From: Gaiellales bacterium
GTDB lineage: Bacteria > Actinomycetota > Thermoleophilia > Gaiellales > JAICJC01
Direction: 5' to 3'
DNA length: 50,585 nt
Assembly (NCBI GenBank): GCA_036403155.1
Contig: DASWRM010000042.1
Span: 113,463 to 164,047 of the forward strand
Each line of letters begins with the position of its first letter. The stretch's first letter is position 1. Under the pieces are notes generated by a model that searched no databases, had not been told where the DNA came from, and saw only the letters and a program-made list of their open reading frames with translations. Shown piece by piece: positions 26,670 through 29,186 of the stretch. A program made the position numbers and the translations under genes.

Positions 26670-27416
26670 ATGGAACCGCCCATCCCGCGGGTCGCGCTCG
26701 TCACTGGTGCGAGCCGCGGCGTCGGCGCCGCGATCGCAGCGGCATTCCTTGCCGAGGGCTACGCGGTGGTGGGCTGTGGGCGAAGCAGTCGGCCGGATGA
26801 GGCGGTCGCCGGGCTCGACTACCGCGTGTGCGACGTCGGCGATCCCTCCGCGATCTCCGGCCTGGTGGCCGGCGTCGTGTCGTCCCACGAGCGGCTGGAC
26901 GTGCTCGTGAACAACGCGGCGGTCGAGGTCGACGCGACGGTGGAGGAGACGACCGTGGAGCAGTGGGACGAGACGCTGGCCGTGAACGTCCGGGCCCCCG
27001 GGCTGTTGTCCGCCGCGGCGATTCCGCACATGCGCGAGCGGGGCGGCGGCGTGATCGTCAACATCGCCTCGATCGACGGCCTCTGGGCGGAGCCGGCGCT
27101 ACCCGCGTACTGCGCGTCGAAGGGGGCGCTGATCGGGCTCACCCGCGCGCTGGCGATCGACCACGGCCGCGACGGGATCCGGTGCGTTGCGATCTGCCCG
27201 AGCTACGTGCGAACGGCGATGCTCGAGCAGTTCTTCGATTCCCAGCGGGATCCGGCGGCTGCGCGGGCGGACGGCGTCGCGATGCACCCGATCGGCCGGC
27301 TCGCAGAGCCGTCGGACATCGCCGATCTGGCGGTGTTCCTCGCGAGCGACCGCGCATCGTTCCTCACCGGGCACGCATACATGGCCGACGGCGGGATGAT
27401 CGCCGGGCACCTCTGA
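26670..27416 (+). CDS. Short-chain dehydrogenase/reductase
   Basis: A 248-residue classical SDR. NAD(P)-binding T-G-A-S-R-G-V-G-A near residues 11-19, N-N-A-A at about 87, the catalytic triad Ser (N-I-A-S), Tyr and Lys (Y-C-A-S-K), and a C-terminal A-Y-M-A-D-G-G-M. An Arg/Ser-rich loop after the second strand (C-G-R-S-S-R) suggests NADP preference. Many actinobacterial SDRs act on 3-oxoacyl or sugar substrates; nothing here narrows the choice. It is followed by the repeat array rather than a gene. Confidence 0.88.
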   Translation: MEPPIPRVALVTGASRGVGAAIAAAFLAEGYAVVGCGRSSRPDEAVAGLDYRVCDVGDPSAISGLVAGVVSSHERLDVLVNNAAVEVDATVEETTVEQWDETLAVNVRAPGLLSAAAIPHMRERGGGVIVNIASIDGLWAEPALPAYCASKGALIGLTRALAIDHGRDGIRCVAICPSYVRTAMLEQFFDSQRDPAAARADGVAMHPIGRLAEPSDIADLAVFLASDRASFLTGHAYMADGGMIAGHL

Positions 27417-27438
27417 GGCCGGGGCGTGCGGCGCCGCC

Positions 27439-27644
27439 GTCACAGAGTTCATGACGCAGACGCCCAATTCTTGGAGACCAAGCCAGATCGTGTGGGCGTG
27501 ACGCTCGTGGTGCACCGTTGCGACGGGGTCCCGCCTGGTTGGGCGGAATCGGACGCTCACCCCACCCGCCGGTGACCAAGTCGATCTCGTGGGTGGGTGC
27601 CGAGACGTTGCGTACTCGGCACAGGCCGTCATGGGAGCGTCACG
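27439..27644. repeat. 206-bp structured tandem repeat, copy 1
   Basis: First of two nearly identical units spaced 232 bp apart between the convergent ends of the SDR and hom genes. It holds stem-loops CTTGG-AGA-CCAAG (27470-27482), CCGCC/GGCGG (27531-27546), CACCC-c-ACCC/GGGTGGGTG (27558-27599) and GTGCCGAGACG-TTG-CGTaCTCGGCAC (27597-27622); the last two overlap and may exclude each other. GTGACGCT/AGCGTCAC (27498-27505 with 27636-27643) could close a multibranch fold. The region carries no recognisable gene; short open frames on both strands have no conserved protein features. Confidence 0.9.
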
Positions 27645-27670
27645 CCCGCCGTTGCCGCTCGGCGCCGCGC

Positions 27671-27876
27671 GTCACAGAGCTCATGACGCAGACGCCCAAT
27701 TCTTGGAGACCAAGCCGGATCGCGTGGGCGTGACGCTTGTGGTGCACGATTGCGACGGGGTCCCGCCTGGTTGGGCGGAATCGGCCGCTCACCCCACCCG
27801 CCGGTGACCAAGTCGATCTCGTGGGTGGGTGCCGAGACGTTGCGTACTCGGCACAGGCCGTCATGGGAGCGTCACG
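27671..27876. repeat. 206-bp structured tandem repeat, copy 2
   Basis: Differs from copy 1 at seven positions (unit positions 10, 47, 53, 68, 78, 79 and 115); the last 91 bases are identical. None of the differences falls in the paired arms listed for copy 1. A 26-bp spacer separates the units, and ggcgccg precedes both. The hom gene ends 20 bp downstream on the other strand. No integrase, transposase or inverted end is seen. A structured RNA, a REP-like element or a decayed repeat family are all possible. Confidence 0.9.
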
Positions 27877-27896
27877 GCGGCCGTCACCGGGGCCGG

Positions 27897-29186
27897 CTAC
27901 CGAGGCGCCCGCTCCAGCACCGGCAGCAGGACCGGAGCCGCGCGGCTGAAGTCCTTGCCGGCGACGCCGTCCGCCGCGGCGCGGACGTCGCCCTCGGGTG
28001 CGCGGTGCGTGAGGATGACGATGTGCACGCCTGCCTCACCCGGGTGCTGCACCACCTGGGCGACCGAGACGCCGTGGTCGGCGAGCTGCTGCGCCACCTG
28101 CGCCAGCACGCCGGGCGTGTCGTCGACGGTGAACCGCAGATAGCAGGGGCTCTCCAGCCGGTCGGGCGGGAAGCGCCCGATGTCCCGGTAGTGCACGTCG
28201 TGCTGGAGGAACCCGGTGCCCTGTGTCCCGATCACCGCGACCACATCCCCGATCACGGCGCTTGCCGTCTCATCGCCGCCGGCGCCCGGCCCCTCGAGGA
28301 TCACCTCGCGGATCGAGCGGCCCTGCAGCATGACGGCGTTGAACGCCCCGTCCACCGCCGCGAGCGGGTGGTCGGCTCTCAGCAGGCACGGGTGCACGCG
28401 CGCCGCCACGCCGCCGTCTCCCTGCCAGGCCGACGCGATCAGCTTCACCGCGTAGCCGAACTCGGCGGCATGCTCGACGTCTGCCAGATGCAGCTCGTTG
28501 ATCCCGACGTGCCCGACCTCCTCGAGCCGCACCCGGGTGTGGAAGGCGATCGACGCGAGGATCGCGATCTTTGCAGCGGCGTCTGCGCCGGTGACGTCCT
28601 CGGTCGGATCGGCCTCCGCGTAGCCCAGCGCCTGGGCCTCCGCCAGCGCCTCCTCGTACGTCGAGCCGCTCTGGATCATGCGCGTGAGGATGAAGTTGGT
28701 CGTGCCGTTGACGATGCCGTCGATCCGGTGCACCGTCGTGACGATCATCGACTCGCGGAGCACCTTGACCACCGGGATCGCCGCGCAGACGCTGGCCTCG
28801 AACCGCAGCTGCACGCCGTTTCGCTCCGCCGTCCCGAACAGCTCGTCGCCGTATCGCGAGAGCAGCTGCTTGTTCGCGGAGACGACCGACTTGCCGGCGG
28901 CCAGCAGCTGGAGCACGTATTCGCGGGTCGGGTCGACGCCGCCCATCACCTCCGCCACCACGGAGATGTCCGGGTCGTCCCGGAGCCGGGCGAAGTCGGT
29001 CGTCAGCAGCCCTTCGGGGGCGTCCGGGTGCCGGCCGGGGTCGCGCACGAGCGCCGCCGCCACCTCCACCGGGTGCCCGGTGACCCGCTCGATCGCCTCG
29101 GCGCCGTCGGTCAGCAGCCGGTGCACGGACGAGCCGACCGTCCCGTACCCGAGCAGGCCGATGCGGATGGGGGATGGGGCGGACAC
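27897..29186 (-). CDS. hom: Homoserine dehydrogenase with C-terminal ACT domain
   Basis: Reduces aspartate semialdehyde to homoserine, the branch point to threonine and methionine. The 429-residue chain opens I-G-L-L-G-Y-G-T-V-G (NAD(P) site), has S-A-N-K-Q-L-L, the catalytic region N-G-T-T-N-F-I-L-T and A-D-P-T-E-D-V-T-G-x-D, and an ACT regulatory domain at about 350-420 (V-D-D-T-P-G-V-L-A-Q-V), which in the family mediates threonine inhibition. GTG 29186 is leaderless: TAGCCT ends 8 nt upstream. It is divergent from the TrkA genes and faces thrC-thrB across them. Confidence 0.95.
   Translation of the reverse strand: MSAPSPIRIGLLGYGTVGSSVHRLLTDGAEAIERVTGHPVEVAAALVRDPGRHPDAPEGLLTTDFARLRDDPDISVVAEVMGGVDPTREYVLQLLAAGKSVVSANKQLLSRYGDELFGTAERNGVQLRFEASVCAAIPVVKVLRESMIVTTVHRIDGIVNGTTNFILTRMIQSGSTYEEALAEAQALGYAEADPTEDVTGADAAAKIAILASIAFHTRVRLEEVGHVGINELHLADVEHAAEFGYAVKLIASAWQGDGGVAARVHPCLLRADHPLAAVDGAFNAVMLQGRSIREVILEGPGAGGDETASAVIGDVVAVIGTQGTGFLQHDVHYRDIGRFPPDRLESPCYLRFTVDDTPGVLAQVAQQLADHGVSVAQVVQHPGEAGVHIVILTHRAPEGDVRAAADGVAGKDFSRAAPVLLPVLERAPR

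Follow-up and report, generated by a model that had tools for sequence, protein, structure and literature searches.

Canonical REPs carry a GT[AG]G foot, are organized in inverted doublets and are located on both sides of the RAYT gene (PMC2817692, PMC6006769). They have been reported mostly between convergent or co-directional genes (PMC3733652). No REP-like sequences were reported for the TnpA-Y1 transposases of subclass 2.1 after automatic as well as manual searching (PMC6006769). The repeat family studied here bears on how REPs originate and on which transposase subclasses make them. The window, that is the whole stretch of 50,585 nucleotides that was analyzed, contains two repeat units of a family that is species-specific and comprises about fifty short boxes scattered between genes.

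The two units of 206 bp, both on the plus strand, span positions 27439-27644 (unit 1) and 27671-27876 (unit 2), as seen by repeat search and copy alignment. They are 96.6% identical and, in agreement with a preliminary description of this DNA, show exactly seven mismatches (unit positions 10, 47, 53, 68, 78, 79 and 115). In a repeat search of the window, the pair can be extended to 220 nt at 95%, with a spacing of 232. The convergent setting proposed earlier was also borne out, with an SDR-type oxidoreductase gene (26670-27416, plus strand) on one side and a homoserine dehydrogenase gene (27897-29186, minus strand), 90% identical in the sister genome G001, on the other. A third full-length unit, 93% identical to unit 1, is found on another contig of the same genome (G000:C33:38584-38789, G000 being the genome of the window).

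Each unit is made of two related boxes of ~50 nt that share the core CCAATTMTTGGAGACCAAG, have the same orientation and are 97-98 bp apart. In unit 1, box 1 (27454-27506; 50.9 bits with our covariance model R1) contains the core CCAATTCTTGGAGACCAAG at 27464-27482, and box 2 (27552-27604; 38.3 bits) contains the core CCACCCGCCGGTGACCAAG at 27562-27580, 98 bp downstream by core start. The same distance separates the cores of unit 2, located at 27696-27714 in box 1 (27686-27738; 54 bits) and at 27794-27812 in box 2 (27784-27836; 38.7 bits); all four boxes are on the plus strand. The 19-nt core CCAATTCTTGGAGACCAAG has two matches in the window, as against 0 in 100 dinucleotide shuffles. A TGGTTGGGC motif precedes box 2 on the same strand (27536-27544 in unit 1, 27768-27776 in unit 2); it recurs, as TGGTTGRGC, shortly upstream of box 2 in most of the genome's doublets. 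Genome-wide, a spacing of 97 or 98 bp is observed in 17 of 25 neighboring same-strand box pairs, a constancy that is not an independent statistic for each copy since the boxes share descent. All phased pairs at this distance are direct and none is inverted; the sequence between the boxes has diverged although the spacing is kept. This fixed phase had escaped the preliminary description, which saw no CRISPR-like periodicity. On CRISPR itself we concur, since short repeats alternating regularly with spacers are absent.

A box can be drawn as an outer stem (e.g. ACGCCC/GGGCGT) around an inner TTGG-AGN-CCAA hairpin; its sequence is conserved more strongly than its pairing. At the foot of the drawn stem, the box consensus shows neither GTAG nor GTGG. 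A GTGGG precedes the 11-pair hairpin drawn in the preliminary description (plus strand, 27597-27622 in unit 1 and 27829-27854 in unit 2). We rejected this hairpin as an independent repeat: only the three 206-bp units have it, and where its arms recur in other palindromes, these look unrelated. Among the three copies, 19 positions are variable; unit positions 11-46 and 116-165, where both boxes lie, contain none of them. Inspection of the unit ends revealed no terminal inverted repeats (15-30 bp) at both ends, a 13-nt inverted pair lying in part within the unit; neither a target duplication nor a target or cleavage site was found at the units.

Used as a DNA query, the 206-bp unit matches 20 places in its own genome, the partial relatives being mostly ~70% identical. 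With up to 3 mismatches, the core has 47 sites in this genome, compared with 0 for a reversed control and 0 in 60 relatives, one of the same genus. The exact core with one variable base gives ten scattered single matches in GTDB contigs, in other phyla, which corresponds to the chance level. A covariance-model search of the kind suggested beforehand, with R1 built on 46 boxes, identified 52 places in the own genome and 0 in 20 relatives; the model derives from the own genome, so that its informative part is the absence elsewhere. Hence, the earlier suggestion of a new repeat family was right. All 32 clusters for which both flanks are known lie between genes, as judged from a simple codon-usage gene caller applied to the stretches around the copies: 12 are convergent, 19 co-directional and 1 divergent, the last being the upstream region of one of the transposase genes described below (C37 RAYT). 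A weak match located within a gene was considered false. The host genome, a draft of 79 contigs with 3.1% estimated contamination, carries the repeats and their RAYTs on many of these contigs. Since several contigs end in such repeats, the genome may contain somewhat more copies than were counted.

The absence of a transposase, also put forward earlier, holds locally. Elsewhere in the genome, however, transposase genes directly adjoin the same repeat. Five genes of the own genome encode an IS200-type Y1 domain (PF01797), and the NCBIfam model REP_Tyr_transpos (NF047646) is the best model for all five, with scores below its cut-off of 80 bits; the C30 and C37 proteins described next score 64-66 bits. 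Among nine relatives, residues H60, H62, Y118, N122 and P123 of the HUH and tyrosine motifs, the last three within a Y...NP motif, are invariant, and the profile of these relatives matches E. coli TnpA-REP (4er8) at E 2.6e-6, with IS200 transposases ranking behind it. Two of the genes, C30:24412-24957 and C37:120619-121143, each follow a doublet in the same orientation, starting ~90 bp downstream of its second core. The chance probability that two of the five Y1 genes lie within 300 bp of a site is about 4e-4. The C30 RAYT is preceded by GACCAAGTCG-type boxes, which is the type of the window copies, and the C37 RAYT by GACCAACCCC- and TCCGACTCC-type boxes, the types of the second large group among the dispersed copies. 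At both genes the doublet is present upstream only, and the neighboring genes start directly after the RAYT stop codons. As a separate observation, the two box types of the C37 RAYT doublet are in reverse order with respect to most dispersed doublets of that subfamily.

In both proteins, the HUH motif is THWH and the tyrosine motif YIPLNP; SS follows the core and there is no HTH tail. Their closest own paralog is 72-74% identical. The tree places the C30 protein as sister to the C37 protein (97/86); next to them branches a second pair, the product of another own gene, C30:2336, with a G001 protein (100/98 for the four). The genes of this pair, orthologous in appearance, adjoin rpoC in the two species (G000:C30:2336-2875 and G001:C46:2716-3261, both on the minus strand). 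Upstream of the former is a 61-nt direct doublet, 109 bp apart, that is found nowhere else in its genome; upstream of the latter is a short CTCAGAGG pair, 110 bp apart. Unlike C30 and C37, the RAYT gene G000:C42:5423-5932 (minus strand) is bordered on both sides by a GGGGTCWGCCT..AGGCWGACCCC palindrome, as in the canonical flanked layout. The RAYT-like gene G000:C49:44723-45169 (minus strand) encodes a sigma-70 region 4 (HTH) tail and is flanked by several GTGAAAAAAAGGNGCCTGGCAC..TTTTTCAC palindromes.

Comparison with G001 and between copies bears on mobility. The truA-surE interval holds a doublet and the C30 RAYT in the own genome, versus ~21 bp with neither of them in G001. At the locus of the window, G001 has its homoserine dehydrogenase gene ~17 bp from a permease gene; G001 being the one informative relative, gain and loss look the same at both loci. 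The SDR-type gene and the repeats are jointly missing there, and this gene may have arrived or been lost in the same event as the repeats. In addition, a second doublet exists as two near-identical copies. Their left flanks (end of C15, start of C70) agree from ~46 bp before the core and their right flanks (starts of C73 and C2) until ~161 bp after the core start, which defines a unit of ~207 bp beyond which the flanks diverge. This pattern indicates that doublet-length units were recently copied to new sites.

Taken together, the units are most likely small passenger elements copied by a domesticated transposase that is encoded elsewhere in the same genome. They are probably non-autonomous, REP-like mobile DNA elements, putatively mobilized in trans by the C30 RAYT. 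C30-linked mobilization is favored by the dispersed, species-restricted and intergenic family, by the fixed geometry of the doublets and by their adjacency to two RAYT genes in which the HUH and Tyr motifs are intact. It is further favored by the existence of one subfamily per RAYT, by the recent duplicates with unrelated flanks and by the empty truA-surE site of G001. On the other hand, the REP-like reading is weakened by the lack of a GT[AG]G foot and of inverted doublets, by RAYT doublets that are upstream only, by NF047646 scores below the cut-off and by the partial conservation of pairing in the box hairpin. In the proposed mechanism, the boxes of a doublet would form imperfect hairpins once single-stranded, for instance at a replication fork, and would be recognized in that form by the HUH/Y1 transposase G000:C30:24412-24957, which lies downstream of its own doublet. 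Its catalytic tyrosine would nick beside the boxes, and the ~205-nt unit would be transferred to intergenic sites elsewhere. Local duplication may give rise to tandem copies such as the window pair. Recognition on the single strand, cleavage and strand transfer, as well as present activity and effects on neighboring genes, are what we infer at this stage.

The preliminary description leaned towards a structured RNA, and a related possibility is a 3'-UTR element, terminator or mRNA stabilizer, selected for its RNA fold and only incidentally close to RAYTs. Nearly all copies do lie downstream of at least one gene. The stem-loops drawn earlier exist, their arms being untouched by all seven differences between units 1 and 2, and none of the three copies shows a change in the CACCC/GGGTG arms or in the closing GTGACGCT/AGCGTCAC stem. 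Double changes are also observed at four outer pairs of the box (e.g. columns 9-44: C-G 9, A-U 8, G-C 2). Against this, the outer stem pairs in 57% of cells, RNAalifold retains two invariant pairs only, and the covariation score over the 46 boxes is equalled by 16 of 500 shuffles, which makes the covariation marginal. Folding of the unit is no better than that of shuffles, with z values of -0.80 (plus strand) and -1.09 (minus strand), within 1.1 sd for a GC-rich sequence. In the third copy, one pair of the CCGCC/GGCGG stem and two pairs of the 11-pair stem are lost, without compensation. At gathering and relaxed thresholds, Rfam returned tRNA elsewhere and chance matches only, and the repeat occurs in one species only. 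The RNA proposal is therefore unsupported, and we consider it improbable; missing compensatory substitutions or a link to a transposon had been named beforehand as what would speak against it, and this is mostly what was found. An apparent structured RNA between convergent genes can thus be a mobile DNA repeat.

Two further readings remain at the DNA level. The boxes could be an array of sites at which a protein, regulatory or nucleoid-associated for instance, binds double-stranded DNA, and selection instead of transposition could have spread them. Such sites would account for a core conserved more in sequence than in pairing, for the strict 97-98 bp phasing and for short inverted motifs such as CCAANNNTTGG. 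They would not account for recent duplicates that copy ~207 bp including non-box sequence, for the pairing of two RAYT paralogs with two box subfamilies, or for the absence from the congener, and we give this reading very little weight. A MITE, or another miniature element moved by an unrelated DDE transposase and adjacent to RAYTs by chance, would have a compatible size (~205 bp) and dispersal, and could show recent unit duplication. However, the units have no terminal inverted repeats at both ends and no target duplication was seen at them; chance adjacency to RAYTs is moreover unlikely, which makes such an element quite improbable here.

Among known systems, the family comes closest to the REP/BIME/REPIN and RAYT (TnpA-REP) systems named "REPtrons" (PMC2817692, PMC3733652, PMC6006769, PMC8266576). 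As in these systems, many short extragenic copies are restricted to a single species, lie mostly between convergent or co-directional genes and contain partly palindromic boxes; copies adjoin a gene for a Y1/HUH transposase, the subtypes of repeat and transposase correspond, and turnover between species is fast. In contrast to REPs, which form inverted doublets of 20-40 nt palindromes with a 5' GT[AG]G foot, the doublets are direct with a fixed 97-98 bp phase and the boxes have no foot and weak pairing. The C30 and C37 RAYTs are not flanked on both sides by inverted repeats, and the copies number about 50, not hundreds. The family would work like a REP system but lies outside canonical REP/REPIN as defined: since the foot, the inverted doublets and the two-sided flanking are missing and the other features are shared, we file it as a new RAYT-associated REP-like variant.

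The transposases also recall TIRYT/TnpA-Y1 subclass 2.1 (PMC3733652, PMC6006769), by the Y..LNP-type motif and the SS after the core, and by the helix-turn-helix tails of same-order relatives. Unlike this subclass, their HUH motif is THWH, W not being among the listed residues, they have no HTH tail, and their units have no terminal inverted repeats. Moreover, they go with dispersed repeats, whereas subclass 2.1 is reported without REP-like repeats. Judged by motif alone, YIPLNP and the SS tail resemble the subclass 2.1 signature best. With the IS200/IS605 insertion sequences and their miniature derivatives, they share a transposase of the HUH family with a single tyrosine. A unit bounded by two hairpins of like orientation recalls the left and right ends of IS200. 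Unlike IS200/IS605, the C30 and C37 proteins have Y...NP (YIPLNP) and not the class 1 Y...Q, there is no identical multicopy IS, and the doublet lies upstream of the gene and not around it.

As a tentative proposal, for which we see somewhat less than an even chance, a RAYT branch with 2.1-like motifs (THWH/YIPLNP, no HTH tail) may have its own dispersed direct doublets phased at ~97 bp. If true, movement would use like-oriented hairpins as left and right ends, nearer to the logic of IS200 than to inverted REPINs, and the rpoC-side RAYT, whose own-genome doublet is undispersed, would represent the stage that precedes expansion of a repeat family. The three related RAYT loci of the own genome and the sister-species ortholog look like a before-and-after, with one undispersed doublet and two dispersed families. 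Should the direct, phased doublet prove to be the mobile unit, the spread of REPs would be linked to the two-ended logic of IS200.

Two other candidates were discarded. An integron attC, prompted by GTTGGGC/GCCCAAC-like motifs, does not fit sites on more than 20 contigs beside unrelated genes and without a cassette array. An 11-bp GTGAC iteron has a window count not above that of shuffles and is not specific to the own genome. Finally, two loci depart from the usual arrangement. At G000:C48:44482 onward, box 2 of a doublet is interrupted shortly after its core by unrelated sequence of lower GC content, which may contain a reading frame and may have inserted into the repeat. At G000:C37:181398-181876, four box cores form a tandem array with a period of 153-154 bp instead of 97, and an additional GGCCGGCCGTWGGCCGGCC hairpin follows the cores.
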